Of a stretch of DNA of 64,000 bases, positions 14,919 through 34,384 are shown piece by piece. Below the pieces are notes generated by a model. The model worked only from the letters and a program-made list of their open reading frames with translations. It had not been told where the DNA came from and made no database searches. Within the stretch, counting starts at the first letter, position 1. Each line of letters begins with the position of its first letter. This DNA comes from Nocardioides agri (GTDB lineage Bacteria > Actinomycetota > Actinomycetes > Propionibacteriales > Nocardioidaceae). Position numbers and translations under genes: made by a program. The stretch lies in assembly GCF_013778305.1 (NCBI RefSeq), contig NZ_JACEIC010000002.1, positions 2,691,669 to 2,755,668 on the forward strand, read 5' to 3'.

Positions 14919-16178
14919 TCAGAGGCGCTCGACGTTCTCCCCGGCGGTGACGCCGCGCAGGTCGAAGAGGCACCGGGCCTTGTCGGCGATCGCGTCGACG
15001 TCGAAGTCGCGGTGCTGCTGGAGCAGGACGGTGATGTCGGCCTCCGCCGCGGCGAGGGCCGGGTCGTCGGCGCGGTTCGTGCCCTCGACCAGCCACTGCG
15101 CGACGTGCGGGTCGGCGTAGGAGACCTCGGCGCCCATCGAGAGCAGCAGGCGGGCCAGCGGGATCGCCGGAGACTCGCGCTGGTCGGCGATGTCGGGCTT
15201 GTAGGTCACGCCGAGCAGCAGGATCTTCGCGCCCTTGACCGGCAGGCTGCGCTCGTTGAGCAGCGACTGGATGCGCTGGGCGACGTAGCGCGGCATGCCG
15301 GAGTTGATCTCCTGGGCGAGCTCCACGAAGCGGAACGGGTAGCCGAGCTGCTCCTGGACGCGGTGGGAGAGGTAGTTGGGGTCGATCGGGATGCAGTGCC
15401 CGCCGACGCCGGGGCCGGGGTAGAACGCCTGGAAGCCGAACGGCTTGGTGCGGGCCAGCCGGATCACGTCCCAGAAGTCGATCGAGAGCTCGTGGGAGAA
15501 GCGGGCCATCTCGTTGACCAGCGCGATGTTGACCTGGCGGTAGGTGTTCTCCAGCAGCTTGGACATCTCCGCCTCGCGGGTGCCCTTGGCCACGACGACG
15601 GTCTCCGCGAGCCGGCCGTAGAACTCCGCCGCCCTGCGCGAGCACTCCTCGGTGGCGCCGCCGACCACCTTCGGGGTGTTGTGGATGCCGAAGGTGGGGT
15701 TGCCGGGGTCGACACGCTCGGGCGAGAACGCGAGCGCGAGCCCGTCGGGGACGCCGACCCTCAGCCCCGAGCCCTCCTCGAGGATCGGGCCGAGCACCTC
15801 CTCGGTCGTGCCGGGGTAGGTGGTGGACTCCAGCACCACCAGGGTGCCGGCCGTCAGGTGCGGCGCGATCGAGCGGGCGGCGGACTTCACCATCGACAGG
15901 TCGGGCCCGCCGGCGGGGTCCAGCGGCGTCGGTACGCAGATCACGACGGTCTCGACGCCGGCGACGACGGCCGGGTCGGTGGTCGCGGTGAACCCGCCCG
16001 TCACCATCGCGGCGACGTCGGCGTCGCTGAGGTCGTCGATGTGCGACCGGCCCGCGTTGAGGCCGGCCACGGTGCGCTCGGAGGTGTCCAGGCCGGTCAC
16101 CTGCAGACCGCGGGCGACCGCCAGCTGGGCAAGCGGCACGCCGACATAACCGAGACCGACGACGACTACACTGCTCAC
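14919..16178 (-). CDS. wecC: UDP-N-acetyl-D-mannosamine dehydrogenase (nucleotide-sugar 6-dehydrogenase)
   Basis: Probable NAD-dependent four-electron oxidation of UDP-ManNAc to UDP-ManNAcA. 419 residues with all three family domains: N-terminal Rossmann VVVVGLGYVGVPLAQLA, central LLENTYRQVNIALVNEMARF, catalytic cysteine C262 in GPGVGGHCIPIDP, and a C-terminal UDP-binding domain (LLLGVTYKPDIADQRESPAI). Assignment as WecC rather than UDP-glucose dehydrogenase rests on the adjacent epimerase and on the GHCIPIDPNYL form of the active site. GTG start with AAGGAG 11 nt upstream; an alternative GTG lies at 16190. Divergent from the epimerase across 87 bp. Confidence 0.88.
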   Translation of the reverse strand: MSSVVVVGLGYVGVPLAQLAVARGLQVTGLDTSERTVAGLNAGRSHIDDLSDADVAAMVTGGFTATTDPAVVAGVETVVICVPTPLDPAGGPDLSMVKSAARSIAPHLTAGTLVVLESTTYPGTTEEVLGPILEEGSGLRVGVPDGLALAFSPERVDPGNPTFGIHNTPKVVGGATEECSRRAAEFYGRLAETVVVAKGTREAEMSKLLENTYRQVNIALVNEMARFSHELSIDFWDVIRLARTKPFGFQAFYPGPGVGGHCIPIDPNYLSHRVQEQLGYPFRFVELAQEINSGMPRYVAQRIQSLLNERSLPVKGAKILLLGVTYKPDIADQRESPAIPLARLLLSMGAEVSYADPHVAQWLVEGTNRADDPALAAAEADITVLLQQHRDFDVDAIADKARCLFDLRGVTAGENVERL

Positions 16179-16265: not shown

Positions 16266-17342
16266 ATGCCGTCGCTGGTCCTGCACGTCACCGGTGCCCG
16301 CCCGAACTTCCCCAAGGCGGCCCCGGTGCTCGCCGCGCTGGAGAAGCGCGGCGTGCGGCAGCTGCTCGTCCACACCGGCCAGCACTACGACGCCAACATG
16401 TCCGAGGTCTTCTTCCGCGACCTCGGCCTGCCCGCCCCCGACCTCAACCTCGGCGTCGGCTCCGGGTCGCACGCGGTGCAGACCGCCGCGATGATGACCG
16501 CGCTCGAGGAGACGTTCCTGGCCGAGCGGCCCGACCTGGTCCTCGTGTACGGCGACGTGAACTCCACCGTCGCCGCCGCGCTGGTCGCCGCCAAGCTCGG
16601 GATCCGCTGCGCGCACGTCGAGGCCGGCCTGCGCAGCTTCGACTGGTCGATGCCCGAGGAGGTCAACCGGGTGGTCACCGACCGCCTCAGCGACCTGCTC
16701 TTCGCCACCAGCGCCGACGCGCTCGTTCACCTCGCCCGCGAGGGCGTCGACCCCGACCGGATGCACTTCGTCGGCAACCCGATGATCGACACGCTGCTGC
16801 GGCTGCGCGACCGCTTCGACGGCTCGCGCGTTGTCGCGGAGGTCGGGCTGCCCGACGAGTACGCCGTCGCGACGCTGCACCGGCCGGGCAACGTCGACGA
16901 CCCCGCCGCGCTCGACCGGCTCGTCGCGGCGCTGCGCGCGACGGCCGACCGGATCGACGTGGTGCTGCCGGTGCACCCGCGCGGCCGGGAGCGGCTCGCG
17001 GCCTCGGGCCTCTTCGACCACCCGCGGATGCACGCCACGGAGCCGCTGGGCTACCTCGAGTTCCTCGGCCTGGTCGAGAAGTCACGCCTGGTCGTCACCG
17101 ACTCCGGCGGCATCCAGGAGGAGACCACGGTGCTGGGCGTCCCCTGCCTGACGCTGCGCCCCAACACCGAGCGCCCGGTGACGATCACCCACGGCACCAA
17201 CCGGCTGGTCACCCCCGACACGCTCGCCGACCACGTCGACGGGGTGCTCGACGGCACCCTCGCGATCGGCGACCAGGTCCCCCCGCTGTGGGACGGCGCC
17301 GCCGGCGAGCGGATCGCCGGGATCGTCGTCGACCAGCTCTGA
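16266..17342 (+). CDS. wecB: UDP-N-acetylglucosamine 2-epimerase (non-hydrolysing)
   Basis: Interconverts UDP-GlcNAc and UDP-ManNAc, supplying the neighbouring dehydrogenase. 358 residues, GT-B-like fold. Motifs: VTGARPNFPKAAPV, LLVHTGQHYDANMSEVFF, VYGDVNSTVAAALVAAKLG, HVEAGLRSFDWSMPEEVNR, TLHRPGNVDD and VVTDSGGIQEETTVLGVP. The conserved histidines and acidic residues of the non-hydrolysing class are present. The ATG at 16266 has GAGAGGA at good spacing; a longer form from 16224 is possible. It ends 9 bp before the convergent GT2-TagF gene, with no evident terminator between them. Confidence 0.95.
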   Translation: MPSLVLHVTGARPNFPKAAPVLAALEKRGVRQLLVHTGQHYDANMSEVFFRDLGLPAPDLNLGVGSGSHAVQTAAMMTALEETFLAERPDLVLVYGDVNSTVAAALVAAKLGIRCAHVEAGLRSFDWSMPEEVNRVVTDRLSDLLFATSADALVHLAREGVDPDRMHFVGNPMIDTLLRLRDRFDGSRVVAEVGLPDEYAVATLHRPGNVDDPAALDRLVAALRATADRIDVVLPVHPRGRERLAASGLFDHPRMHATEPLGYLEFLGLVEKSRLVVTDSGGIQEETTVLGVPCLTLRPNTERPVTITHGTNRLVTPDTLADHVDGVLDGTLAIGDQVPPLWDGAAGERIAGIVVDQL

Positions 17343-17351
17343 CCCCGAGGC

Positions 17352-20300
17352 TCACACCAGGCCGAGCACCCGCCCGGCGGCGCGACCGTCGTGGTGGGCG
17401 TGCCACTTGGCGTTGAACGCGGCGACCTCGGCGTCGTACCGCTCCCGTAGGGCCGCCCGGTCGCGCAGCGCGTCGACCAGGTCGTCGACGTCGGCGACCT
17501 GAGGGCCGACCGCCGTGCTGTCGAAGTCGAGCGGTGGCCGCACGACCTCGAGGTAGTCGTCGTGGTCGGGCACGTGGAAGACGGCCGGCCGACCGGTCAG
17601 CGCCCAGTCGAAGCGCAGGTCGGAGTAGTCGAGCACCGCGGCGTCCGCGGCCAGCAGGAGGTCGCTGACGTCGGCGTACGTCGTGACGTCGACGACCCGG
17701 CTGCCCCCGGCGTACGGGACGCCCAGCGCCAGCACCACGTGGTCCCGGCCGAGGCCCTCGGCGAGGCGCTGCAGGTCGAGCTCGTCGACGTCCTTGACCC
17801 GGGCACGGGTCGCCCGGTCGCGGAAGGCCGGGGCGTAGAGCGACAGGACGGCGTCGTCGGACAGGCCGAGCCGGGCCCGCACCCGGGCACCCGCTGCGGC
17901 GCGGTCGGCGTCGACGAGGAGGTCGTAGCGCGGGTGGCCGGTGACCAGCACCTCCGGCAGGTCGAGCTCGGTGCGGTAGATCGCGGCGACGTCCTCGTGG
18001 GGGGCGACGGCCGTGTGCCACTGCTGCCGCCGGCGGGCGAGCTCGAGCGCGACGGCCCGCTCGCTGAGCCCGCGCGACCGCCAGAAGGAGCGGCCCACGG
18101 CGGCCGCCGGGAAGCCGGCGAACGCCTGCACGACGCGCTGGCCGGGGCTGGGGACGAAGAAGTCCGGCAGGTCGCCGCAGGCGAGCACGGCGCCGGCCGT
18201 CGACAGGACGTCGTGCCAGTGCCGGCTGCCGGCCAGCACGGGCGTCGCGCCCTCGGGGACCGCGACGCCGAGGTCGCGCACCGCCCAGTAGCGGGTCACC
18301 TCCGGACGGGTGCGCGCGAGCTCACGGTCGAGGGCGAGCAGGCCGGGCGTGCGACCGCCGTCGGAGGTCAGCAGGACCGCACCGGCGCCGACCTCGACGG
18401 CGCGGGCCCGGTGGGCGCGCCTGAGTGCCTCCTGACCCGCAGGGGAGCGCTCCTCGTCCGTCAGCGGCCCGGCGATGTCGGCCGCGACCGTCCGGTCGGC
18501 CCGCATCCGCAGCGAGAGCCGCAGCTCGTCGGTGCGCTGCGACCCGGGCAGCTGCTCGCCGAGAGCATCGTCGGGCACGGCCTCGATCTCGACGCCGTCG
18601 GCGGTGCGCACGATGAGCAGGTAGGGCCCGCTCGGCGCCGCGCCGACCGGTGTGGTCAGGGTGGTGCCGCCGACGGCGTCGAGATCAAGGTCGGTCGCGC
18701 GCAGCTCGAGGTGCCGGCCGCGCCACACCGCGCCCCGCAGCTCGGCCTCGGTGATGCCCGGGGCGACGACCTCGGTCACGATCGCCCCCGGTCGCAGCTC
18801 CACGTGGCGGATCCGCACCTGCCGGCCGTCGGCGACCGCGCGCACCATGCCGACGTGGTTGACCCGCCAGACCAGCCGACCCGGTCCGGTCGCGCCGTAC
18901 GGCGCCTCCGGGTCCGGGCCCGGGACCGGCCACAGCAGCGGCTGGGGCGCCAGGCCGGTGCCGGAGACCCGCAGCGCCCAGTCCCCGCGCACGGGCAGGT
19001 CGAGCACCACGGTACCGTCCGGTCCCGGTCGGGCCTCCACGGCCTCCTCCGGCGAGACCCGGGCCACGACCTTGGCCGCGGGCGGGAGCTCGCCGTCCAG
19101 GCGCAGCGTCATCGGGCCGCCGGTCGGCTCGTCGAGCGCGCCCACCACCAGGGTCGCCGGGAGGAACGCGACCTCGAAGCCACCGGCGGGGTGGAAGCGC
19201 GGCTCCAGGCGCCATCGGCGCCCGCCCAGCTCGACGACCTCGTGCCGGGGCTTCGCGGCGAGCGAGGCCTCGACGGCGTCGTGGACCGCCGACTCGCGCA
19301 CCACGCCCTCCTGCTCGACCCGCACCCGCAGCCGCCACGCGACCGGGTCCGGGCCGGCCGGGGCGAGCGCGGCGAGGTCGAGGATGACGGCGAAGCCGGA
19401 GTGCGGGTAGCTCGTGGCCTCGTCGTCGACCCAGGTGTCGATCTCCGGCTCGTGCACCGGCTCCACGGCCAGTGGGCGAGTGGCGCCGGACGCGGGGTCC
19501 ACCAACCACGCGGCGATGTCGGGAGCCCCTGCCTCCGTCGCCAGGCCCGGCACCAGCGCGTAGCCGGTCACCCGGATCGTCTCGCCGGTGCGGCGCACCG
19601 AGCGCAGCGCGGCCCGCAGCGTCGTCTCGGCCGGCGAGAGGATCCACGCCGAGTCCGGCACCAGGGCCACGACATCGGCCGGGAGCTCCGGCACGGCCAT
19701 CAGGTGCCCGCCGGCGACCCGCACCTGCGGGTCGCGGCCCCGGCCGAACCACTCGTCGGCGGTGGCCAGTGCGTCCCAGTGCTCGCCCGCGCACAGCCAC
19801 GCCTCGACCAGGCGGTCGTGGCGCACGTGCTCGAGCGCGCGCTCGGTGGCCCGCTCGAGGAACGTGCGGTACGTCGCCGCCAGCGCCGCGCGGTAGTCGT
19901 GGTCGCCGCCCAGGGCATGGGTGAGGAACGGCGGGAAGTCGACGTCGAGGCAGCGGCCCACCCACGCGTCGTACGCGATCTCGGAGGCCTCGGCGCGCAG
20001 CAGCGCGTGGGCCTCCTCCTTCACCTCGATCCGGTCACGCAGGTTGCGCAGCGTCGCCTTCTGCTGCCCGGTGCTCGTGTGGTCCTCGCGCAGCCGCCAG
20101 TTGTAGGTCACCCGGGCGAGCACGTCGAAGCGCTCCGCGCGCACGTACGCCGTCAGCATCGGCACGTGGTCCTCGTAGGCGATCCCGCCCCGGAACCCGC
20201 CCACCCGCGTGCGCCAGAACTCGGTCCGGAACATCCGGTTGCACGCGATGATGTCCTGCATCGCGGCGGGGAACTCGTCGATGGTCGTCGCGAGCCGGTC

Positions 20301-20807
20301 GAACTCGTGGACGGTCTCGCCCCACGCCACGTGGCGGTGCTTGTCGTGCTTCACGCGGCGCGCGGCGCCGACCACGAAGTCCGAGCCCGTGCGCCGCAGC
20401 GTCCGCACCATGTGCTCGTAGGCGCGCCGGGGCACGGTGTCGTCGGAGTCGCAGAACGTCACGTACTCGCCGCGAGCCACCTCGAGCGCCCGGTTGCGGG
20501 CCGGGCCCTGGCCGGCGTTCTCCTGCCGCAGCACCCGCAGCCGCGGGTCCCGGGCGGCGTACGCCGCCAGCACGGCCGGGCAGCCGTCGGTCGAGCCGTC
20601 GTCGACCGCGATCACCTCGAGGTCGGTGAAGGACTGACCCAGGACGCTGTCGAGGCACTCGGGCAGGTACTGCGCGACGTTGTAGACCGGGATGACGACC
20701 GTGAGGGTCGGGCGGTCCTCGGCGGCGGCCGGGTCCGCCGCGGACCGGAGCCGGCCGCGGACGCCACGGACGACGGTGCCGAGGCGGCGGGGAGCGGCGG
20801 GAGGCAT
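17352..20807 (-). CDS. GT2-TagF fusion protein with a degenerate TagF domain
   Basis: 1151 residues. N-terminal GT2 domain (about 35-260) is intact: TVVIPVYNVAQYLPECLDSV, EVIAVDDGSTDG, GEYVTFCDSDD. A middle beta-rich region (about 450-750) joins a C-terminal domain of the CDP-glycerol/CDP-ribitol glycerophosphotransferase (TagF) family, recognised by LLTSDGGRTPGLLALDRELARTRP, LYAPAFRD and AAVLDYSDLRFDWALTGRP. Both histidines essential in that family are replaced: FAGFP has A897 where HG is expected, and LALGVPY has V1030 where RGH is expected. The TagF half is therefore probably inactive as a polymerase. Leaderless -10 six nt upstream of the ATG. Confidence 0.85.
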   Translation of the reverse strand: MPPAAPRRLGTVVRGVRGRLRSAADPAAAEDRPTLTVVIPVYNVAQYLPECLDSVLGQSFTDLEVIAVDDGSTDGCPAVLAAYAARDPRLRVLRQENAGQGPARNRALEVARGEYVTFCDSDDTVPRRAYEHMVRTLRRTGSDFVVGAARRVKHDKHRHVAWGETVHEFDRLATTIDEFPAAMQDIIACNRMFRTEFWRTRVGGFRGGIAYEDHVPMLTAYVRAERFDVLARVTYNWRLREDHTSTGQQKATLRNLRDRIEVKEEAHALLRAEASEIAYDAWVGRCLDVDFPPFLTHALGGDHDYRAALAATYRTFLERATERALEHVRHDRLVEAWLCAGEHWDALATADEWFGRGRDPQVRVAGGHLMAVPELPADVVALVPDSAWILSPAETTLRAALRSVRRTGETIRVTGYALVPGLATEAGAPDIAAWLVDPASGATRPLAVEPVHEPEIDTWVDDEATSYPHSGFAVILDLAALAPAGPDPVAWRLRVRVEQEGVVRESAVHDAVEASLAAKPRHEVVELGGRRWRLEPRFHPAGGFEVAFLPATLVVGALDEPTGGPMTLRLDGELPPAAKVVARVSPEEAVEARPGPDGTVVLDLPVRGDWALRVSGTGLAPQPLLWPVPGPDPEAPYGATGPGRLVWRVNHVGMVRAVADGRQVRIRHVELRPGAIVTEVVAPGITEAELRGAVWRGRHLELRATDLDLDAVGGTTLTTPVGAAPSGPYLLIVRTADGVEIEAVPDDALGEQLPGSQRTDELRLSLRMRADRTVAADIAGPLTDEERSPAGQEALRRAHRARAVEVGAGAVLLTSDGGRTPGLLALDRELARTRPEVTRYWAVRDLGVAVPEGATPVLAGSRHWHDVLSTAGAVLACGDLPDFFVPSPGQRVVQAFAGFPAAAVGRSFWRSRGLSERAVALELARRRQQWHTAVAPHEDVAAIYRTELDLPEVLVTGHPRYDLLVDADRAAAGARVRARLGLSDDAVLSLYAPAFRDRATRARVKDVDELDLQRLAEGLGRDHVVLALGVPYAGGSRVVDVTTYADVSDLLLAADAAVLDYSDLRFDWALTGRPAVFHVPDHDDYLEVVRPPLDFDSTAVGPQVADVDDLVDALRDRAALRERYDAEVAAFNAKWHAHHDGRAAGRVLGLV

Positions 20808-20813
20808 GTCCGC

Positions 20814-20819
20814 ACCGTA
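20814..20819 (-). promoter_or_regulatory. candidate leaderless -10 of the 20807 GT2-TagF gene
   Basis: On the minus strand TACGGT ends 6 nt before the ATG at 20807, in the 46-bp gap to the divergent GT61 gene. Confidence 0.4.
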
Positions 20820-20853
20820 TCGGCGGGGCGCGTTGTGGCAGACTCGGGCCGCG

Positions 20854-22545
20854 ATGAGAAGCCCCCTCGACGTCCTGCGCCGCCGCCGGCGCGCCGCCGG
20901 TGGCGACGAGGCGGATGCTCCCGGGATCGCCGCCGTGAGCGACCAGCGTGCCGCCCGGCTGCTCGCCCTCGCTGTCCGGCCTCTCGAGCGCGGCCACGCG
21001 CGGGTGGTGGTGCTCGCTGCCGACCAACCGACCTGGCTGGTCGACGCGGTCCGTGCCGCGAGCCGGAGCCCTCGGGTCACGGTGCTCGATCCGGCCGTCG
21101 GACCCGCCGGCCTGCACGTCGAGCTCGCGGCGCGCGGTCCGCTGGACCTCCTCGTCGACCTGACCGAGGACCCGGCCGAGGTGCGGGCCGAACGCGCGCG
21201 CGCCACGCTCCTCCACCTGCGTCCCCACGGCGTCCTCGTGGTCGCGGACGCCGCGCGGGGCGGCGGCGCCGAGCTGGTCGCCCAGCTCGACGAGGCGCTG
21301 CGGGCGGCGCTCGCTCCCGACCAGGCCGGCCTCGACCACCACCAGCGGTTCTGGGGACGCGCGGTCGACACCGTGACCGTCCGCGACGGCCACGTCGCGA
21401 TCACCAACCGGCTCCGCGCCTTCGCCCAGCTCCGCGAGGAGCAGGCCGCCGACTACCTGCGGCTGCGCGGCGCGGACGCCGGCGCCGTGCTGGCCGAGCG
21501 GCCGGGCACTGTCGTCGACAACCCGGCGCCGATCCTGGCGAGCGAGCACGACGACGCGACGACGTACGCCACCCACTTCGAGGCGCCGCCGATGCAGCTG
21601 CGCGAGTACCGCGACGTCGTCTGCTGGCCCGGTCAGGTGGTCACCCAGGGCCACGTGCTGCTGCCCGAGACCTACCGGCACGGCGCCCGGGCCAAGCTCG
21701 GCAACCGTTTCCTCGACGATCTGGCCTTCGACTTCGGCCGGCCGTCGACCGACGCGCGACCCGAGGCGCTCGAGGGGACCTACTTCCACCTCGACTCCGA
21801 GTTCCGCGGCCACTTCGGGCACGCCCTGACCGAGCAGATCGCCCGGCTGTGGGCCTGGCCGGAGGCCAAGCGCCGCCACCCGGACCTCAAGGCGCTGATG
21901 CTGACCAACCGCAAGCGCACCACGGTCGCCGGCTGGGAGCACCGGCTCTACCAGGCCGCCGGCGTCGCGCCCGAGGACCTGGTGCTGGCCGAGCGGCCGG
22001 TGCGGGTGGAGCGGCTGCTCGCCGGGACGCCGATGTTCACGCAGCCGGAGTACGTCCACGCCGACATCACCGAGGTCTACCGCCGGATCGGGGACGACCT
22101 GGCGGCCGAGGCGCCCGACAAGGCCTACCCCGAGCGGATCTTCTGCTCGCGACGCAACGACAAGCGCTCCTGCCACAACACCCCGGACGTCGAGGCGTTC
22201 TTCGCCGAGCGCGGCTTCGAGGTCGTCTACCCCGAGGACCACCCGCTGGCGGAGCAGGTCCAGATGTTCCGCAGCGCGACCGAGCTCGCCGGCTTCGGCG
22301 GCAGCGCGATGTTCACGATGGCGTTCGTCCCCGAGCCGAAGCGCGTCTTCCTGGTCTCCTCGGAGAACTACCGGGCCCAGAACGAGGCGCTCATGGCGGC
22401 CGTCCTCGGTCACCAGCTCAACGTGGCCTGGTGCCGACCGGACAAGACGCGGGCCGCGGGCTACAAGGGCCGCGAGGCGATGCACTCGCAGTTCACCTTC
22501 GACCCCGACCGCGAGGGCCGCTTCCTCGCGGGGCTGCTCGACTGA
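20854..22545 (+). CDS. glycosyltransferase family 61 (DUF563-type) protein
   Basis: 563 residues. The N-terminal ~170 residues form a Rossmann-like region (LLALAVRPLERGHARVVVL, VRAASRSPRVTVLDP, HLRPHGVLVVADAARGG) reminiscent of a methyltransferase fold but without a clear SAM motif. The C-terminal ~330 residues are GT61-like: FHLDSEFRGHFGHALTEQI, RIFCSRRNDKRSCHNTPDVEAFF, GFEVVYPEDHPLAEQVQMF and ELAGFGGSAMFTMAFVPEP, the conserved RxxxKR...N...E and late Gly-Ser motif. Predicted cytoplasmic. It faces away from the GT2-TagF gene and leads into the second fusion protein, so it is probably a sugar transferase for the same polymer. Confidence 0.78.
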   Translation: MRSPLDVLRRRRRAAGGDEADAPGIAAVSDQRAARLLALAVRPLERGHARVVVLAADQPTWLVDAVRAASRSPRVTVLDPAVGPAGLHVELAARGPLDLLVDLTEDPAEVRAERARATLLHLRPHGVLVVADAARGGGAELVAQLDEALRAALAPDQAGLDHHQRFWGRAVDTVTVRDGHVAITNRLRAFAQLREEQAADYLRLRGADAGAVLAERPGTVVDNPAPILASEHDDATTYATHFEAPPMQLREYRDVVCWPGQVVTQGHVLLPETYRHGARAKLGNRFLDDLAFDFGRPSTDARPEALEGTYFHLDSEFRGHFGHALTEQIARLWAWPEAKRRHPDLKALMLTNRKRTTVAGWEHRLYQAAGVAPEDLVLAERPVRVERLLAGTPMFTQPEYVHADITEVYRRIGDDLAAEAPDKAYPERIFCSRRNDKRSCHNTPDVEAFFAERGFEVVYPEDHPLAEQVQMFRSATELAGFGGSAMFTMAFVPEPKRVFLVSSENYRAQNEALMAAVLGHQLNVAWCRPDKTRAAGYKGREAMHSQFTFDPDREGRFLAGLLD

Positions 22546-22607
22546 CGTCCGCAGGCCACCGGATACGATCGGCCGGGTCCACCGGCTGAAAAGAGGAGCA
22601 CGCCCAC

Positions 22608-25600
22608 GTGCGTTCACGGCAACGCGTCGAGCGAGTCCTGGTTCGGGTCGGCAAGGCCACCCCGGTCGCCGTCCGCGGGCCGCTCGGCCGGGCGACGCGC
22701 GCGCTGCGCGGACGCTGGTCCGGACCCCGGGTCACGGTCGTGGTCGCGATCAGCGACACCGAGACCCGCCGCGTCGCGCCCTGCCTGATGTCGCTGCGGG
22801 CGCAGACGCACCGCAACCTCGACATCGTCGTCGTCCCGTACGCCGCCGCAGCGGGCGCGGTCGCCGCCGCGCGCGAGCAGGCGGCCCAGGACTGGCGGAT
22901 CCGCATCGAGCCGCCGGTCGCCGACCGGGCCGCTGCCTGGACGGCGGGCGCCGCCCGGGCCAGGTCCGGCTACCTGGTCTTCGCCCAGGGCGGCGACGAC
23001 TTCCCCTACGGCGCCCTGGAGCGGCTCGCCACGTCGCTGGAGGAGAGCGGCTCCGACATGGCGGTCGGCCGGATCGAGCCGCCGCTGACGCTCCACGCCT
23101 CGGTCGACTCGCCGTTCGAGGCCGCGCACCAGACCGAGATCCGCAGCACCACGCTCGCCGAGTCTCCCGTCGCCATCACCGACCTGGCCGTCGGCAACCG
23201 GATGCTGAGGCAGGAGTTCTGGGCGTCGTCCGGGCTGGGCTTCGACGCAGCCGACCGGCTCGGCACCGAGTTCGCGCTCGCGACGTACCTGCGCGCCCGC
23301 TCCTTCGACCTGCTCAAGGACCCCGCCTACATCCCGACCAACCGGCGCGAGGGCGTCAGCGTCGGCGCGATGCGCGACGTGCTCTCCGAGCTCGACCAGT
23401 GGGTCACCGAGCACGCCGCGACCCAGCGCTCGGTCGCCGCGCTCGGCCTGCCCGACGTCCTCGACTGGTGGCTCTGGGGCACCCTCGACGCCGCGATCCA
23501 GCCGTTCATCGGCGACGTCGAGCGGGCCACCCCGGAGCAGTGGGATCATCTCCGCGAGCTGGTCACCGAGCTCCTCGACGCCGGCGGCGAGAGCGCGTGG
23601 CGCACCCTGCGGGCCGACTCGCGGGTCAAGCTCTGGCTGGTCAGCCACGACCAGCGCGACCGGCTGGAGGAGTACGTCGCCGCCCGGCTCTTCGAGCGGT
23701 CCCACCGAGCGACGGAGGTGCGCGACGGCGTCGTCGTCGGCCACCTGCCGTTCTACCGCGACCCGCAGGTCGGGATCCCGGACGACGCGTACGAGATGAC
23801 GGACAACGAGACCCCCATGTGGGCCGTCGTCCACCGGATCACGTGGCGCGACCCCGAGCGCCTCGAGCTGCACGGGTACGCCCGGATCGAGCACGTCGAC
23901 CTGTCCGAGGGGTGCGAGGTGCGGGCCTGGCTCGTCGAGCGGGGCACCGGCACCGAGATCGCCCTGCCGGTCGAGCAGCGCGTCGACATCCGCGCCAACC
24001 AGTTCGAGGGCTCGCGCCACCAGGACTACGCCGCAGGTGCGTTCACGCTCACCCTGGACACGGCGGCGCTGGCCGCCCGGGCTCTCGAGCGCGGCCGCCA
24101 GGCGCGCTGGACCGTCGACGTGGCGGTCACCGCCCGGGGGCTCACCCGCCGCGGTCAGCTCTCCGAGATCGACGACCGCGCCTCCGCCGGCATGATCGAG
24201 ACCGGGCACCTCGGCGATCGCCTCGTGGCCGGTGCCCGGGTCGGCGTCCGCGGCCGGGTCGCGAGCCGGTTCGCCCTCGTCGCCCGTCCCGACACGCCCC
24301 CGGTGCTCGAGGAGGCCACCGTCGCCGGCGGCACCGTCTCCGTCCGGGTGCGTCCCGGCGCGGCGCCGGTCACCGAGCTGCGCGCCGTCGACCAGGTCGG
24401 CACCGTGGCGCGGGCCCGGGTCGCCGCCGCGTCGGACTCCGTCGACGCCACGCTGGAGCTGCCCCGCCCGCGGCCGGGCGACCCGGTCCGCCGCTTCCGC
24501 CTGGTCGCGGTCGTCGGCGGCTCCGACGTACCCGTCGCGTGGCCCGCGGAGGCGTCGCAGTGGCTGGGCGCCGGCACCGGCGACGTCGTGCTGAGCCGCT
24601 CCGAGACCGGCGACGTGGACATCATGGACGCGCTCGGCACCCTCGTGGTCGAGGATGTCGAGCTGACCAGCGACACCCTCGACCTGCGCGCCCGCTGGCT
24701 GGGCTCCCCGCCGGCCGGCGCCCGGTTCCGGCTCGTCCGCAAGCAGGTCGAGCTCGACGTCGAGGTCGCGGGCGACGGCCCCGACGGCCTGTTGCTACGC
24801 GCCCCGACCCGCTGGGACCCGTGGGGCCTCGGACCGACCCGCCTGCCGGTCGGCAACTACAAGGTGATGGTCGACTTCGGCCCCGGTGGCCGGGCCCACG
24901 AGGGGCGGGCGCTGGTCGGCGAGGCGCTGCTCGACCGGCTGCTCGACTTCACCATCGACCACGGCTTCCGGATGCGCGCCGCGCGCACCGGCCGCGAGGC
25001 GTGCGTGGTGCTGCTGCCGCCGCTGACCGAGGAGGACCGCGGCCAGCTCGCCCAGGCGAGGCTCCAGGAGTGGTACCGCACCTGCGACCTGCCGATCGAC
25101 GGCACGGCCGTCTACCTGCAGTCCTACGCCGGCGCCACCGCGACCGACAGCCAGCTGGCCATCCACCACGAGCTGCGGCGCACCCGGCCGGACCTGACGC
25201 TCTACTGGGGCATCGCCGACGCGGCGTCGACCGTGCCCGAGGGCGGCGTACCGGTCCTCATGCACTCGGCCGAGTGGTACCGCCTGCTCGCCACGGCCCG
25301 CTACCTCTGCTTCAACATCGACCCGGACCGGTGGTTCTCCCGCCGTGAGGGCCAGCAGGTCCTGCAGACCTTCCACGGCTACCCGGCGAAGTCGATGGGC
25401 ATCCGGATGTGGCAGGCGAAGGGCTACACGCCGAAGCGGATCGACCTCGAGCTGGTGCGCACCTCCCACGACTGGTCGACGATCCTCACCCCGGCGCCGG
25501 AGATGGACGAGCACTACCGGCGCGAGTACCGCTACGACGGTCCGATCCTCAACGAGGGCTACCCCCGCGACGACCTGCTGGTCTCCCCGGAGGCCGAGCA

Positions 25601-26180
25601 GGTCCGCGCCGACACCCGCAGGCGGCTCGGGATCGCCGCGCATCAGAAGGTCGTGCTCTACGCCCCGACCTGGCGCGACGACCTGGCCACCAACTGGCGC
25701 CGCGCCGAGGTCGTGCACCACCTCGACGTGGTCGCCGCGAGCCGCAGGCTCGGCCCGGAGTACGTCCTCCTCATGCGAGGGCACCGCTTCCACGGACCGA
25801 GCGAGGAGCTCGAGGGCGGCGCGCAGCTCATCGACGTCACCGACTACCCCGAGATCAACCATCTGATCCTGGCCTCGGACGCGGCGGTGCTCGACTACTC
25901 CTCGCTGCGCTTCGACTTCGCCCTGACGGGGCGGCCGATGCTCTTCCTGGTGCCCGACCTGGCGACCTACACCGGCGGCGTGCGCGGCTTCCTCTACCCC
26001 TTCGAGGAGTCCGCCCCCGGCCCGCTGCTCGACACCGCGGACGAGGTGATCGCCCGGCTGCGCGACCTCGACGGGCTGTCGGAGGAGTACGCCGGCGCGC
26101 AGGCCGCCTTCCACCAGCGGTTCAACTACCTCCAGGACGGCCGGTCCGCCGAGAAGGTCGTCGCGGCGTTCTTCAGCTGA
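22608..26180 (+). CDS. GT2-TagF fusion protein with intact TagF domain (teichoic-acid-type polymerase)
   Basis: 1190 residues. The N-terminal GT2-like domain (about 40-260) has lost key motifs: VVVPYAAAAG replaces the usual DDGSTD, and LVFAQGGDDF replaces the DxD motif. Middle beta-rich region, then a C-terminal TagF/TarL domain: ELRRTRPDLTLYWGIADAA, LQTFHGYPAKSMG (H923), VVLYAPTWRDD, LLMRGHRFHG (H1059) and DAAVLDYSSLRFDFALTGRP. Both family-essential histidines are present, so it likely transfers polyol-phosphate units from a CDP-polyol to a growing chain at the inner membrane face. GTG start with AAGAGGAG upstream. Ends 8 bp inside the convergent GNAT gene. Confidence 0.88.
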   Translation: MRSRQRVERVLVRVGKATPVAVRGPLGRATRALRGRWSGPRVTVVVAISDTETRRVAPCLMSLRAQTHRNLDIVVVPYAAAAGAVAAAREQAAQDWRIRIEPPVADRAAAWTAGAARARSGYLVFAQGGDDFPYGALERLATSLEESGSDMAVGRIEPPLTLHASVDSPFEAAHQTEIRSTTLAESPVAITDLAVGNRMLRQEFWASSGLGFDAADRLGTEFALATYLRARSFDLLKDPAYIPTNRREGVSVGAMRDVLSELDQWVTEHAATQRSVAALGLPDVLDWWLWGTLDAAIQPFIGDVERATPEQWDHLRELVTELLDAGGESAWRTLRADSRVKLWLVSHDQRDRLEEYVAARLFERSHRATEVRDGVVVGHLPFYRDPQVGIPDDAYEMTDNETPMWAVVHRITWRDPERLELHGYARIEHVDLSEGCEVRAWLVERGTGTEIALPVEQRVDIRANQFEGSRHQDYAAGAFTLTLDTAALAARALERGRQARWTVDVAVTARGLTRRGQLSEIDDRASAGMIETGHLGDRLVAGARVGVRGRVASRFALVARPDTPPVLEEATVAGGTVSVRVRPGAAPVTELRAVDQVGTVARARVAAASDSVDATLELPRPRPGDPVRRFRLVAVVGGSDVPVAWPAEASQWLGAGTGDVVLSRSETGDVDIMDALGTLVVEDVELTSDTLDLRARWLGSPPAGARFRLVRKQVELDVEVAGDGPDGLLLRAPTRWDPWGLGPTRLPVGNYKVMVDFGPGGRAHEGRALVGEALLDRLLDFTIDHGFRMRAARTGREACVVLLPPLTEEDRGQLAQARLQEWYRTCDLPIDGTAVYLQSYAGATATDSQLAIHHELRRTRPDLTLYWGIADAASTVPEGGVPVLMHSAEWYRLLATARYLCFNIDPDRWFSRREGQQVLQTFHGYPAKSMGIRMWQAKGYTPKRIDLELVRTSHDWSTILTPAPEMDEHYRREYRYDGPILNEGYPRDDLLVSPEAEQVRADTRRRLGIAAHQKVVLYAPTWRDDLATNWRRAEVVHHLDVVAASRRLGPEYVLLMRGHRFHGPSEELEGGAQLIDVTDYPEINHLILASDAAVLDYSSLRFDFALTGRPMLFLVPDLATYTGGVRGFLYPFEESAPGPLLDTADEVIARLRDLDGLSEEYAGAQAAFHQRFNYLQDGRSAEKVVAAFFS

Positions 26181-26971: not shown

Positions 26972-28387
26972 TCAGGAGAGGCTGTCGGCGTCGCCGAGCT
27001 GGAGGGCCTCCATGGGGTCGAGGCGGCGCAGGTCGACGACGTGGCCGGTGCCGCTGGAGACCAGGGTCTCGAGGGAGGCCTTCGCGACCGCCGCCGACTC
27101 GAGCAGCGAGTCGGCCGGCTCGTCGCCGAACGCCTTGGTGCGCATCGGGGTGCCGGTGCGCTCGGGGTTGATGCAGTTGACCCGGATGCCGTCGGCGGCC
27201 CACTCGTCCGCGAGCGCCTGGGTCAGGTTGACGGTCGCCGCCTTCGCCGAGGAGTAGAGGCTGTAGCCGCTGCGGCCACGGGTGTAGGAGCTCGACGTGA
27301 AGAGCAGCATGCTGCCACCGCTGGCGCGCAGCAGCGGGTGGAAGATCTGGGCGATGAGCACCGGCGCGATGTAGTTGATCTCGGTCGCGCTCCAGATCGT
27401 CTCGTCGGAGGTGTCGACGAGGCTGCCGATCGGGAGGACCCCGGCGGTGTTGACGACGAAGTCGACCGAGCCGAAGCGCTCGACCGCGTCGCGGGCCGCG
27501 GTGGTCACGTCCTCACGGCGCTGGACGTGCGTCTGGGTCGTCGACCGGCTGTACGACGCGACGTTGGCGCCGTACGACGCGGCGAGCTCGGCGATGTCGG
27601 CGCCGATGCCGTAGCTGCCCCCGAAGACCACGACCGTCTTGCCCGACAGCGCGGCGCGCATCGCGTCGTCGCTGCGCACAGCGGGCGCGTCGTTGCCGGT
27701 GAGCTGGAAGAGCTTGTCGGCGAGGTAGATGTCGATCGGCTCGGTGACCTTCATGTTCCGCTCGTCGCCCGGCACGACCCAGATCGGGACGTCGGGCTGG
27801 TAGCGCAGCACCACGGTGCAGTCGTCCGTCGCCTCGAACGCCGGGTCCTGGCGCGCGATCCGGTAGGCGTCGCGGATCGTGCTGAGCCGGAAGGCCTGCG
27901 GGGTCTGGCCGCGGCGCAGGTTGGCGCGGGGCGGGATGTCGCGGATCGTGTTGTCCGGGCCGACCTCGATGATCGTGTCGGCGGAAGGGATGGCGACGTC
28001 GACCGCGGCGTACTCGTCGAGCGCGGCGAAGCAGTCGGTGATGATCCGCGCGCTGACCAACGGGCGGACCGCGTCGTGCAGCAGCACCTTGCAGTCCTCG
28101 TCGCCCAGAGCGTCGAGCGCGCGCTGCGTGGTGTCGTTGCGGGTCCCGGCGCCCTCGAGGATCTGGGTGACCTTCGCGTAGCCCCCGTCGCGCACCATCT
28201 TGTGCACCGCGTCGAGGTGGCCGGGCGCCATCATCACGACGATCTCGTCGACGTCCGCGTGCCGGTCGAGGATCGCGAGCGTGTGCTCCATGATCGAGTG
28301 CCCGGCGATCTTGATGAGCTGCTTGGGGACACCGAGCCCGACTCGGACGCCGACACCTCCGGCGAGCAGCACGGCCACGTTCTTCAT
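26972..28387 (-). CDS. IspD/TarI-like cytidylyltransferase fused to SDR reductase; probable CDP-ribitol synthase
   Basis: 471 residues with two catalytic domains. Residues 1-230 form an IspD/TarI-type nucleotidyltransferase: LLAGGVGVRVGLGVPKQL, LLHDAVRPLVSARII, KVTEPIDIYLADKL. Residues 247-471 form a short-chain dehydrogenase: GGSYGIG at 256-262, NTAG at 313-316, catalytic Ser-rich strand 365-367 and Y378-x-x-x-K382. The same order occurs in Haemophilus Acs1/Bcs1, which reduces ribulose 5-phosphate and then makes CDP-ribitol. Next to TagF-type proteins this role is more likely than MEP-pathway IspD. It ends well short of the GNAT gene; AGGA precedes the ATG. Confidence 0.82.
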   Translation of the reverse strand: MKNVAVLLAGGVGVRVGLGVPKQLIKIAGHSIMEHTLAILDRHADVDEIVVMMAPGHLDAVHKMVRDGGYAKVTQILEGAGTRNDTTQRALDALGDEDCKVLLHDAVRPLVSARIITDCFAALDEYAAVDVAIPSADTIIEVGPDNTIRDIPPRANLRRGQTPQAFRLSTIRDAYRIARQDPAFEATDDCTVVLRYQPDVPIWVVPGDERNMKVTEPIDIYLADKLFQLTGNDAPAVRSDDAMRAALSGKTVVVFGGSYGIGADIAELAASYGANVASYSRSTTQTHVQRREDVTTAARDAVERFGSVDFVVNTAGVLPIGSLVDTSDETIWSATEINYIAPVLIAQIFHPLLRASGGSMLLFTSSSYTRGRSGYSLYSSAKAATVNLTQALADEWAADGIRVNCINPERTGTPMRTKAFGDEPADSLLESAAVAKASLETLVSSGTGHVVDLRRLDPMEALQLGDADSLS

Positions 28388-28508: not shown

Positions 28509-28841
28509 ATGGGGAGCGTCAACGCGGACGGTGCACGTCTGCTGGGGCTGGTCCACGACGAGATCGCCCAGCTCGGTCTCACCGACACCGCGCTCGTGGC
28601 CGCGCTCGAGGAGCAGGTCGCGAGGACCGTCGCCGAGGTGTTCCCGCACGACCGGTCGACGACCGACGGCGACCTCGTGCTCACCGACGAGGAGGCCGGC
28701 CGCGTCGCGCTCGCCGTGATGACCGCCGCCGCGTCCCTGGGCACGGCCCCGGCCGCCGGCACGCCGACCGGCCCGCTCGCCGCCGACCTGACCACCGGCG
28801 AGCTCCTGCGCGCCGCTCTCGGGGCGAGGCCGCGTGGCTGA
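28509..28841 (+). CDS. small acidic protein, function unknown
   Basis: 110 residues, mostly helical, no signal peptide or membrane segment: LGLVHDEIAQLGLTDTALVAALEEQVARTVAEVF, then an acidic link and EEAGRVALAVMTAAASLG. The ATG at 28509 follows a GAAGGA site and a TAGGCT hexamer about 40 nt upstream. Its end overlaps the GTG of the following sulfotransferase-like gene by 8 bp, so the two are co-translated; it may be a partner protein. No family recognised. Confidence 0.6.
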   Translation: MGSVNADGARLLGLVHDEIAQLGLTDTALVAALEEQVARTVAEVFPHDRSTTDGDLVLTDEEAGRVALAVMTAAASLGTAPAAGTPTGPLAADLTTGELLRAALGARPRG

Positions 28842-30102
28842 GACGACCGCGCCCTTCGCCGACGGCACCCGGGTGCTGCACATCGGCCCGCACAAGACCG
28901 GCACGACCGGCCTCCAGCGCGCCTTCTGGGCCAGCCGCGACCTGCTCGCCGAGCACGGGGTGCTGTGGGCGGGCGGCACCGCCCACCCGATGGCGGCCGC
29001 GATCGCCGGCGCGACCGGAGGCCAGATCGCGACCGCGCGGCCGGGCTCCGGCGAGCACCGCTGGCTCGACCTGCTGGCGGAGCTCGACGCCAGCACGGCG
29101 CGGGTCTCGGTGCTGAGCAGCGAGTTCTTCTCCGACGCCCCCGCCGAGCGGATCCCGCAGATCATCGGGCAGCTCGGCGCCGACCGCACCCAGGTCGTCG
29201 TGACGCTGCGCCCGCTGACCCGGATCCTGGCCTCCCAGTGGCAGCAGTACATGCAGAACCAGCCCCAGGTCCGCTACGGCGACAACCCGAGCTACGAGGG
29301 CTGGCTCGACATCGTGCTCAACGACCCCGAGCAGACCGCGATCACCCCGACCTTCTGGCGGCGGCACCGCCACGACCGGCTGATCCAGCGCTGGGTCGAG
29401 CAGGTCGGCGCCGACCGGCTGTCGGTCGTGGTCGTCGACGACGCGCACCCGCGCGGGGTGCTCGCGTCGTTCGAGCGCCTGCTCGGGCTGCCCGACGGGC
29501 TGGTCCGCGAGCCCGAGGCCACCGCCAACCGCTCGCTCACCCTCCCTGAGGTGGCGATGGTGCGCGGCTTCAACGCCGGGTGGATCGAGCGCGGCTGGTC
29601 CGACGCCGACTACACGCGGTTCGTCCGCTTCTCCTCCGTGCGGCACCTGATGGAGCGCACGCCGCTGCCGGACGAGCCGAAGATCAAGACCCCGCAGTGG
29701 GCCGTCGACCGGGCCAACGAGATCGGCGCCGAGATGGTGGCCGCGATCAGCGACCTCGGGGTCCGCGTCGACGGCGACCTGGCGCTGCTGCACACCGCCG
29801 TACCGCGCGGGGTCGGGGACAACCCGGTCGAGGTCGCGGTGCCCGCCGACGCCGTCGCCCGCTTCACGGCCGGACTCGTCAAGGTCGTCGCGACCACCCC
29901 GGCGCGCGGCGCGGTCGACACGCGCCGGCTGGGGCCGATCGAGACCGCCGTTCGCGAGGACAAGATCCGCCGCGGCGTGCGCGACGAGCCCGCCCACGGC
30001 CCGGTGCCGCCGGCGGAGCGGCCGGTCGCGGAGCTGAGCCGGGGCGCGCTGCTGCGGCTCGCGCTGGGGCGGGTACGCCGCCGGCTGCGCCGCGGCCGCT
30101 GA
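28834..30102 (+). CDS. sulfotransferase-like P-loop protein
   Basis: 422 residues from GTG 28834. The N-terminal VLHIGPHKTGTTGLQ (residues 14-28) is the 5'-phosphosulfate loop found in PAPS-dependent sulfotransferases, followed by VSVLSSEFFSDAP and VVVTLRPLTRILASQWQQYMQ, which matches the 3'-phosphate-binding Arg/Ser motif. The C-terminal 60 residues are Arg-rich. Probably modifies the polymer or a glycolipid with sulfate; the acceptor is unknown. Last gene of the polymer locus, followed by a repeat-rich intergenic region. Confidence 0.75.
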   Translation: MAETTAPFADGTRVLHIGPHKTGTTGLQRAFWASRDLLAEHGVLWAGGTAHPMAAAIAGATGGQIATARPGSGEHRWLDLLAELDASTARVSVLSSEFFSDAPAERIPQIIGQLGADRTQVVVTLRPLTRILASQWQQYMQNQPQVRYGDNPSYEGWLDIVLNDPEQTAITPTFWRRHRHDRLIQRWVEQVGADRLSVVVVDDAHPRGVLASFERLLGLPDGLVREPEATANRSLTLPEVAMVRGFNAGWIERGWSDADYTRFVRFSSVRHLMERTPLPDEPKIKTPQWAVDRANEIGAEMVAAISDLGVRVDGDLALLHTAVPRGVGDNPVEVAVPADAVARFTAGLVKVVATTPARGAVDTRRLGPIETAVREDKIRRGVRDEPAHGPVPPAERPVAELSRGALLRLALGRVRRRLRRGR

Positions 30103-32704: not shown

Positions 32705-34384
32705 GTGGCCGCATCCGCCCGGGACCTCGATGCGCCGGTACGCCGGCTGCCTGGTCGCCTGCTCGCGCCCGAGCCGGGGTGGACGACGACGGCCGACGTG
32801 GTCGTCGTCGGGTCCGGGATCGCCGGGCTGACGGCCGCGCTGCGGCTGCGTGGCCACGTCGACAAGGTCCTCGTCGTCACCAAGGACGTGCTCGCGGCCG
32901 GCTCCACCCAGTGGGCGCAGGGCGGCATCGCCGCCGCGCTCGGGCCGGAGGACACCCCCGAGGAGCACGAGCAGGACACGCTGGTCGCCGGCGCGGGCGC
33001 CTGCGACCGCGAGGCCGTCCGGGTGCTGGTCACCGAGGGCCCCGACGCCGTGCGCGAGCTCATCGCGCTCGGCACCGTCTTCGACCACGACCCCGACGGC
33101 GAGCTGTCGCTGACCCGCGAGGGCGGCCACCACCGCGACCGGATCGCGCACGCCGGCGGCGACGCGACCGGGGCGGAGATCCAGCGGGCGCTGATCGCCG
33201 CGATCGAGCGGGCGCCCGAGATCGAGGTCGTCCAGCACGCGCTCGCCGTCGACCTGCTGCTCGCCGAGGACGGCGGCGTGGCCGGGCTCACCCTGCACGT
33301 GATGGGGGAGGGTCAGCGTGACGGCGTCGGCGCGGTGCTGTGCCGGGCCGTGGTGCTCGCCAGCGGCGGGCTGGGCCAGGTGTTCTCGCAGACCACCAAC
33401 CCCGCCGTCTCGACCGGTGACGGGATGGCGGTCGCGCTCCGCGCCGGCGCGGTGCTGCGCGACCTGGAGTTCGTGCAGTTCCACCCGACGGTGATGTACC
33501 TCGGCGCCGACTCACACGGCCAGCAGCCGCTGATCTCCGAGGCGGTGCGCGGTGAGGGTGCCTTCCTCGTGGACTTCGAGGGCCACCGCTTCATGCAGGG
33601 GGTGCACGAGCTCGCCGACCTCGCCCCGCGCGACGTGGTCGCGAAGGCGATCATGCGCCGGATGCTGGAGACCGGCCACCCGCACATGTGGCTCGACGCC
33701 CGGCACCTGGGCCGGGAGTTCTGGGAGCGGCGCTTCCCCACGATCCTGGCGACGGCCCGCAGCCACGGCGTCGACCCGGTGAGCGAGCTGATCCCGGTCG
33801 CTCCGGCCTGCCACTACGCCTCCGGCGGCGTGCTCACCGACCTGTGGGGTCGCAGCAACGTGCCGGGCCTCTACGCCACCGGCGAGGTCGCCTGCTCGGG
33901 CGTGCACGGCGCCAACCGGCTCGCGTCCAACTCGCTCCTCGAAGGACTGGTCTTCTCGCGCCGGATCGCGGAGGTGCTCCCCGGTGAGCTGCGCGACCTC
34001 CAGCCGCCGGCACCCGACCGGCGCACCGCCGGACTCGTCGCGGGCGGCGTACGCCGGGACCTGCAGGAGGTCATGACCTCGCGGGTCGGCGTGCTCCGCA
34101 ACGCCACGGGACTCGACGACGCGGCCAGGCTGCTCGACAAGCTGGCCGGCGAGGTCACCGAGTCGGTCGACCAGGAGTCGTGGGAGACCACCAACCTGCT
34201 CACGATCAGCTCCGCGCTCACCAGTGCGGCCGCGGTGCGTGAGGAGACGCGCGGCTCCCACTGGCGCGAGGACTTCCCCGAGCGCGACGACGCGCGGTTC
34301 GCCGCCCACCTCGACCTCGTCATGGACGCCGGCGACTGCACGCTCGAGCTGGTGCCCGCGGCGCCGACGGACGGAGCGCGATGA
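32705..34384 (+). CDS. nadB: L-aspartate oxidase
   Basis: FAD enzyme that oxidises L-aspartate to iminoaspartate, the first step of de novo NAD synthesis. 559 residues. FAD site VVVVGSGIAGLTAALRL, STQWAQGGIAAAL, the substrate arginine/histidine region LEFVQFHPTVMYLG, VACHYASGGVLTD-like segment, and GEVACSGVHGANRLASNSLL. The C-terminal helical domain (residues ~430-559) is complete. No nadA is adjacent in this window. Its stop overlaps the next gene (ATGA), which is unexpectedly a sulfotransferase-like gene rather than nadC. Confidence 0.96.
   Translation: MAASARDLDAPVRRLPGRLLAPEPGWTTTADVVVVGSGIAGLTAALRLRGHVDKVLVVTKDVLAAGSTQWAQGGIAAALGPEDTPEEHEQDTLVAGAGACDREAVRVLVTEGPDAVRELIALGTVFDHDPDGELSLTREGGHHRDRIAHAGGDATGAEIQRALIAAIERAPEIEVVQHALAVDLLLAEDGGVAGLTLHVMGEGQRDGVGAVLCRAVVLASGGLGQVFSQTTNPAVSTGDGMAVALRAGAVLRDLEFVQFHPTVMYLGADSHGQQPLISEAVRGEGAFLVDFEGHRFMQGVHELADLAPRDVVAKAIMRRMLETGHPHMWLDARHLGREFWERRFPTILATARSHGVDPVSELIPVAPACHYASGGVLTDLWGRSNVPGLYATGEVACSGVHGANRLASNSLLEGLVFSRRIAEVLPGELRDLQPPAPDRRTAGLVAGGVRRDLQEVMTSRVGVLRNATGLDDAARLLDKLAGEVTESVDQESWETTNLLTISSALTSAAAVREETRGSHWREDFPERDDARFAAHLDLVMDAGDCTLELVPAAPTDGAR

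Follow-up and report, generated by a model that had tools for sequence, protein, structure and literature searches.

Opposite active-site losses in a pair of GT2-TagF fusion proteins of Nocardioides agri and in their relatives

In Staphylococcus aureus, with TarL next to TarS and TarP, and in Listeria monocytogenes, with RmlT, the polymerase and the glycosyltransferase of ribitol-phosphate teichoic acid are separate proteins. The folds of these enzymes match the two halves of a pair of large proteins encoded in the 64,000-nucleotide stretch of Nocardioides agri DNA analysed here (the window, on contig C2 of a 4.79-Mb genome), and the protein encoded on the minus strand (the minus protein) shares their GT2 motifs. 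Unlike in the TarL/TarS systems, however, the two window proteins each still carry both halves, one of which looks inactive: the minus protein has kept the glycosyltransferase motifs and lost the histidines of its TagF-like domain, and the plus-strand protein (the plus protein) has kept the histidines and lost the GT2 motifs. The TagF of Staphylococcus epidermidis (PDB 3l7i and variants), a teichoic acid polymerase with entries soaked with CDP-glycerol, resembles the window proteins in its TagF domain and matches GT2 over chain residues 4-166, with NDGSTD and DADD, a part that lies outside the structure ranges aligned below; unlike the minus protein, it has both histidines. An actinobacterial ribitol-phosphate teichoic acid, with a TagF encoded together with TarIJ, has been described for Streptomyces griseus and is compared here by description only (PMC13274773).

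Two capsule systems are also close to the window pair. A single chain of Cps1B carries a GT-A domain and, after it, a TagF-like domain, and the DxD mutant and histidine mutants of this protein, inactive alone, reach the wild-type level of synthesis when mixed (Litschko et al. 2018, PMC5974469). In Cps1B, however, both domains are active and were split by mutation, whereas the window holds natural paralogues with opposite losses; Cps1B also differs in belonging to a Gram-negative capsule, in its TPR domain and in its sugars (PMC5974469). In Haemophilus influenzae type b, Bcs1 makes CDP-ribitol and the separated domains of Bcs3 work in trans, although ribose and ribitol phosphate are joined there by other domains and into a capsule (PMC10299916). 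The enzyme kinds themselves are already known; among titles and abstract openings in the open literature, none dealt with pairs of natural paralogues whose dead sites are opposite, with repeated loss in one family or with Nocardioides teichoic acid genes. The window pair looks like a natural and repeated version of the laboratory trans-complementation performed on a glycosylating polyol-phosphate polymerase.

Active sites and folds of the two proteins

The open reading frames (ORFs) and Pfam matches confirmed that two large paralogues flank a GT61 gene, as the initial annotation had stated. Their features are as follows:

17352..20807, minus strand: minus protein, 1151 amino acids; TarS-like GT2, beta domains and TagF-like domain without the histidines (residues, Pfam, alignments, model, fold search)
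19638..20711, minus strand: TarS/RmlT/TarP-like glycosyltransferase part of the minus protein, residues 33-390, motifs intact (family alignment, fold search)
17355..18449, minus strand: TagF-like domain of the minus protein, residues 787-1151; A897 and V1030 at the histidine places, DYSD for DYSS (family alignment, fold search)
22608..26180, plus strand: plus protein, 1190 amino acids; GT2-like domain without motifs, beta domains and intact TagF-like domain (residues, Pfam, alignments, model, fold search)
22725..23801, plus strand: TarS-like fold of the plus protein, residues 40-398; VVVPYAAAAG and AQGGDD replace the GT2 motifs (family alignment, fold search)
25041..26177, plus strand: TagF/TarL-like domain of the plus protein, residues 812-1190; H923, H1059 and DYSS (alignments, fold search)

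The minus protein is numbered from the ATG at 20807, a start chosen here that the earlier residue numbers fit (the mechanical ORF is longer, with 1351 amino acids from a TTG), and the plus protein from the GTG at 22608. Every residue quoted in the initial annotation is present in the two frames. The minus protein has DDGSTD at 69, CDSDD at 119 and an ED pair that sits beneath the ED of TarS in the alignment, and direct reading of its TagF domain gives QAFAGFP with A897 and LALGVPY with V1030. The plus protein, again by direct reading of the translation, has VVVPYAAAAG at 74 and AQGGDD at 126; in the family alignment the first D is replaced by P and the D of DxD by Q, and the ED is absent, while its TagF domain shows FHGYPAK with H923 and RGHRF with H1059. 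These two histidines align in phmmer with the two sites changed in the solved S. epidermidis TagF variants. Alignment with the references placed the lost sites of the minus protein at the TagF histidine places, as had been proposed, and no other His or DxD takes over at the lost places in the family alignments. The Pfam scores show the same opposition, with 128.8 bits for GT2 and 165.6 bits for Glyphos_transf in the minus protein against 28.4 and 261.2 bits in the plus protein, although both TagF-like domains exceed the curated cut-off of PF04464 (22.1 bits). In TagF, H444 is likely the base and H584 binds pyrophosphate (PMC11666461); the changed domains are presumed to have lost activity.

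Both predicted structures (mean predicted local distance difference test score, pLDDT, 90.0 and predicted template modelling score, pTM, 0.84 for the minus protein; 87.8 and 0.85 for the plus protein) follow one plan: a helically extended GT-A domain comes first, then beta-rich domains, and a TagF-like domain completes the chain. In the fold search, minus residues 33-390 matched S. aureus TarS (Z 32.5, root-mean-square deviation (rmsd) 4.2, 336 residues aligned), L. monocytogenes RmlT (Z 31.2), TarP (Z 29.8) and K4CP (Z 23.4), the last being the template used for the GT-A domain of Cps1B (PMC5974469), and residues 787-1151 matched TagF (Z 38.5, rmsd 2.9, 362 aligned). The plus protein matched TagF (Z 40.2, rmsd 3.0, 371 aligned) and TarS (Z 25.5, rmsd 6.4, 322 aligned), and TarL with CDP-ribitol matched the minus (Z 30.7) and the plus protein (Z 32.0) with an rmsd near 15. 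According to the models, both proteins join a TarS-like half to a TagF/TarL-like one, in agreement with the two-domain make-up first read from the sequence.

We lean towards the view that the two proteins divide the work of making a ribitol-phosphate wall teichoic acid: the plus protein would polymerise, the minus protein would glycosylate and the TagF domain of the latter would be redundant. The IspD-like enzyme fused to a short-chain dehydrogenase (SDR) that is encoded nearby would feed CDP-ribitol to the plus protein, a putative TagF/TarL-like polyol-phosphate transferase that would build the chain, with ribitol as the probable polyol, and whose TarS-like domain would be an old inactive remnant. 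The minus protein, which seems to descend from a bifunctional ancestor, would have retained only its TarS/RmlT-like transferase and would add sugar to the ribitol-phosphate chain in trans, presumably as a side chain. As the plus protein would already provide polyol-phosphate transfer, the minus TagF domain might have ceased to be catalytic, and it may be kept as a folded module that perhaps holds the chain or the partner. Such a kept dead domain would fit the observation that an inactive mutant of Cps7A, a member of the TagF family, still stimulates long chains (PMC11666461). That the two proteins work together, as initially proposed, is plausible.

Recurrence of the losses in the genus and beyond

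Each protein was used as a query against 147 genomes of the genus. Alongside the window, 51 stretches (20 kb at most) from 48 genomes were examined, and 58 of the 76 TagF frames were kept as fusions (TagF above 300 bits and GT2 above 100 bits). Both sites are intact in 17 of the 58, only the TagF site in 33 and only the GT2 site in eight, all of minus-type, and no fusion has lost both; in four of the 17 rows classed as intact (G135, G086, a G136 row and a G024 row), the first GT2 motif is eroded in part and the ED is missing. With 41 of the 58 fusions thus without the motifs of one of the two sites, the survey is a warning against annotation by domain alone. All eight genomes with a minus-type fusion also carry a GT2-dead, TagF-intact protein, so that the complementary pattern suspected for the window pair, one site kept per protein, holds in homologue pairs as well, and a one-off or sequencing accident is excluded by these homologues with the same losses. 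The suggestion of symmetrical decay in recently duplicated sisters did not stand. The two proteins are 30-31% identical, the GT2 loss of the plus-type is broad (the 33 fusions) whereas the TagF loss of the minus-type is narrower and repeated, and minus relatives in other genera keep both sites. The losses are not a chance pattern, as the retained domain is the better conserved one in each protein: in the 21 pairs formed by seven of the eight genomes with minus-type (G067 was set apart), mean identity was 65.9% for GT2 and 43.0% for TagF in the minus protein (GT2 higher in 21/21), and 71.5% for TagF and 55.9% for GT2 in the plus protein (TagF higher in 21/21). Reading by eye suggested that the other bifunctional type and the minus-type exclude each other, with one overlap (G067).

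Beyond the genus, 149 genomes of the family, 245 of the order and 394 of the class were searched, which together with the 147 are overlapping samples with the best few candidates per genome scored, and 40 further stretches were examined. The wider set comprises 140 TagF frames from 88 genomes, of which 31 are TagF-intact with no GT2 match above 90 bits, some of them cut by contig ends (such as the partner in G179) or belonging to stand-alone TagF types. A row of 73 plus-type proteins had been picked for having both histidines; its 73/73 is by construction and was not used. The minus family has 30 members, whose N-terminal 525 residues score at least 369 bits compared with at most 260 bits for the next relatives. 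The three GT2 motifs (DDGSTD, DxD and ED) are present in 30/30, while the TagF domain varies: 14 members have the two histidines, another 14 are without the first, and two (G105 and G108) have no such domain. The 14 members with intact TagF are all from other genera or from another family of the order, and none of them has lost H444, H584 or S614. Among the 14 altered domains, the H444 place is lost in all, the H584 place in eight and S614 in 11, and the Asp of DYSS is kept in all. In a tree of the N-terminal part, the TagF state changes five times, with four changes forced by starred branches, and counting losses only gives seven on the best tree (by eye, and with some inner branches poorly supported). 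The two activities appear to have nearly ended up in one protein each in G105 and G108, as judged from the residual GT2 signal of the partners: Pfam finds no GT2 in the G105 partner, and our own GT2 profile still sees 40 bits there and 27 bits in the G108 partner. The statement that no protein has lost both sites is limited to the 58 genus fusions because exceptions were seen beyond them; outside the minus family, G156 has a GT2-positive fusion with Ser at the first histidine place, the G173 and G227 proteins combine a weak GT2 (57 and 60 bits) with an altered TagF, Arg occupies the first histidine place in a TagF frame of G189, and G163 has a TagF fragment of 250 amino acids.

A TagF-intact protein with a dead or unrecognised GT2 lies inside the stretch examined in 27 of the 30 minus-family genomes. 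In G192 (altered) an intact TagF gene begins 0.2 kb beyond the stretch and another, bifunctional, is found elsewhere. A second intact TagF is encoded outside the stretch in G199 (intact) and is absent from G276 (intact). In G617, the genome of a 31st member found later and outside the tree, the minus-type TagF is intact and there is no second strong TagF. Wherever the minus TagF is altered or missing (16 genomes), a different protein of the genome carries both histidines; G276 and G617, the two that lack a second strong TagF, retain both in the minus-type. The dependence looks one-sided rather than mutual, because an altered or missing minus TagF always has an intact TagF elsewhere, whereas plus-types often occur without a minus-type. 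Among the 33 genus genomes with plus-type GT2 loss, 25 have no minus-type in the stretch examined, and the idea that the plus protein needs the minus protein was not supported; a different bifunctional protein or a stand-alone GT2 gene is present in some of these 25.

These counts, together with the folds, also bear on an alternating co-polymerase acting in trans, in which the minus protein would insert a backbone sugar and the plus protein would add polyol phosphate in turn, giving a poly(glycosyl-ribitol phosphate) like the products of one-chain bifunctional capsule polymerases. The domain order and mixed-mutant complementation of Cps1B (PMC5974469) are suggestive of such a mechanism, as are the minus-family relatives in other genera that retain both sites. 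However, the GT fold of the minus protein is nearest to enzymes of poly(ribitol phosphate), namely TarS, RmlT and TarP, with K4CP well behind, and the plus-type genomes without a minus-type argue against it, though some have other GT2 genes nearby; on balance, we consider the co-polymerase possible but doubtful.

Constraint on the altered TagF domain

The ratio of nonsynonymous to synonymous substitution rates (dN/dS; Nei-Gojobori, without codon-bias correction) was 0.22, 0.24 and 0.29 in three close pairs of altered TagF domains, two of which include G210, and 0.55 in G000/G038, compared with 0.21 and 0.29 in two intact pairs and 0.09, 0.14 and 0.27 in three pairs of plus TagF. As these values are well under 1, the altered TagF domain is still constrained. 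Identity of TagF relative to GT2 of the same protein does show a relaxation of the altered domains, the TagF/GT2 values being 77.6/91.3, 76.5/87.0, 64.4/87.9 and 53.3/74.0% in the altered close pairs and 88.0/86.1 and 76.6/74.0% in the intact ones.

Several observations weigh against the proposed division of labour. The loss of H444 alone is no proof of inactivity, and 6/14 altered domains keep H584; Cps7A, an active glycerol-3-phosphate transferase, has Y94 at the H444 place (PMC11666461), and because of this, calling the six H584-keeping domains dead calls for caution. A claim of inactivity would be safest for the eight domains without both histidines, that of the window included. The dN/dS values were rejected as a sign of relaxed selection, since they do not separate altered from intact TagF. 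Support for the inner Nocardioides branches is low in the tree (85/94, 91/94 and 89/94), and the loss count there is uncertain. G192, G205 and G210 have an intact TagF of a different type (with an HGTP motif) about 4-8 kb away, and there is no IspD-SDR gene in the stretch. Finally, CDP-ribitol as the precursor is read from a domain arrangement, and the IspD part of the window gene scores 99.4 bits against ribitol-5-phosphate cytidylyltransferase and 95.5 bits against IspD, a slight margin.

Some of the same points could mean that the minus TagF is changed rather than dead, and transfers another group or uses another catalytic residue, as would be in line with the low dN/dS, the Asp of DYSS in all altered domains, the H584 kept in six and the activity of Cps7A with a Tyr at the H444 place (PMC11666461). 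However, the H444 place is occupied by seven different residues (A, P, R, S, Q, G and F) and the H584 place by four, with Tyr at neither, which is unlike a new conserved site, and G105 and G108 have no such domain at all; we consider a changed activity quite unlikely. The missing domains would instead suit a plain degeneration, with each dead domain a functionless leftover under removal, and so would the lower conservation of TagF than of GT2 in the altered pairs and the minus-type of G216 (L176:7093-11083), which is divided between two overlapping frames, one for GT2 and one for TagF, through a frameshift or an assembly error. The long open frames of the other members and a dN/dS below 1 speak against degeneration, and so do the confident folds of the dead domains, albeit weakly because the alignments behind the models contained relatives with intact sites; such a process seems to us the least probable of the explanations considered.

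Neighbouring genes and possible precursors

The locus of the two large proteins and the GT61 gene is bounded by wecC- and wecB-like genes and by the IspD-SDR gene:

14919..16139, minus strand: wecC-like gene adjoining the minus-gene region
16266..17342, plus strand: wecB-like gene adjoining the minus gene
20692..22545, plus strand: GT61 gene, ORF as listed; from a reading of the start, its true start is probably near 20806 or 20854 (Pfam)
26972..28387, minus strand: IspD-like cytidylyltransferase fused to a short-chain dehydrogenase; CDP-ribitol-synthase-like (Pfam, sequence comparison)

The gene at 26972-28387 has IspD (159.5 bits) and adh_short (107.6 bits) in one chain in Pfam and looks like a CDP-ribitol synthase of the TarIJ/Bcs1 type, extra to another IspD-like frame in the genome (230 amino acids, 125 bits). 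A cytidylyltransferase-reductase arrangement has been told for the CDP-ribitol synthase Bcs1 (PMC10299916), and TarIJ is found beside TagF in the wall locus of S. griseus (PMC13274773). The IspD-SDR gene was labelled in 38/52 genus stretches, window included, and in 22/40 of the further ones, and it lies inside the stretch of 13/16 genomes with an altered or missing minus TagF.

A uronic amino sugar for the wall polymer may come from the products of the wecC- and wecB-like genes. In S. griseus, the TarS-like transferase UtrC is proposed to link a uronic-acid glycan to ribitol phosphate (PMC13274773), and the wecB- and wecC-like genes beside the minus gene are alike to this by description. In a bolder reading, the pair might form a hetero-complex in which each dead domain docks the live one of the other protein and thereby rebuilds the ancestral bifunctional glycosylating polymerase; where wecB- and wecC-like genes adjoin the minus gene, its GT2 would decorate the ribitol-phosphate chain with a teichuronic-acid-like glycan of ManNAcA type, as proposed for UtrC with another uronic sugar. 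We offer this as a speculation that is unlikely to hold. By eye, wecB and wecC are both in the stretch of 4/14 genomes with altered minus TagF (G000, G038, G420 and G192) and of 1/14 with intact TagF (G166), and G276 has wecC alone; these cases are too few to claim a link with TagF loss.

Given the matched orthologues with intact, altered or missing TagF, plus their partners, in related soil bacteria, it becomes testable why dead domains persist, whether a single polypeptide is required for both chain building and glycosylation, and by what route the Nocardioidaceae make their wall teichoic acids.

Some further genes were seen in or near these loci. Two sulfotransferase-like proteins are encoded in the window at 28834-30102 (no Pfam match at E 0.1) and 34381-35436 (below its Pfam cut-off), and their relatives are common neighbours of such loci. 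In G210, contigs C1 and C8 both carry several TagF genes of the locus with identical scores, which points to a duplicated region or an assembly artefact. The G173 protein (L173:3449-6469), a TagF-fusion relative of 1007 amino acids with an altered TagF and a weak GT2, has as neighbours an intact TagF protein and a bifunctional one that keeps both sites. A further family of about 850-880 amino acids, as at L098:2013-4754, joins GT2 to a very divergent TagF-like part with PHPN and DYSS and no first histidine motif; it is also present in L089, L097, L099, L100, L101 and L102, often near a minus-type gene.

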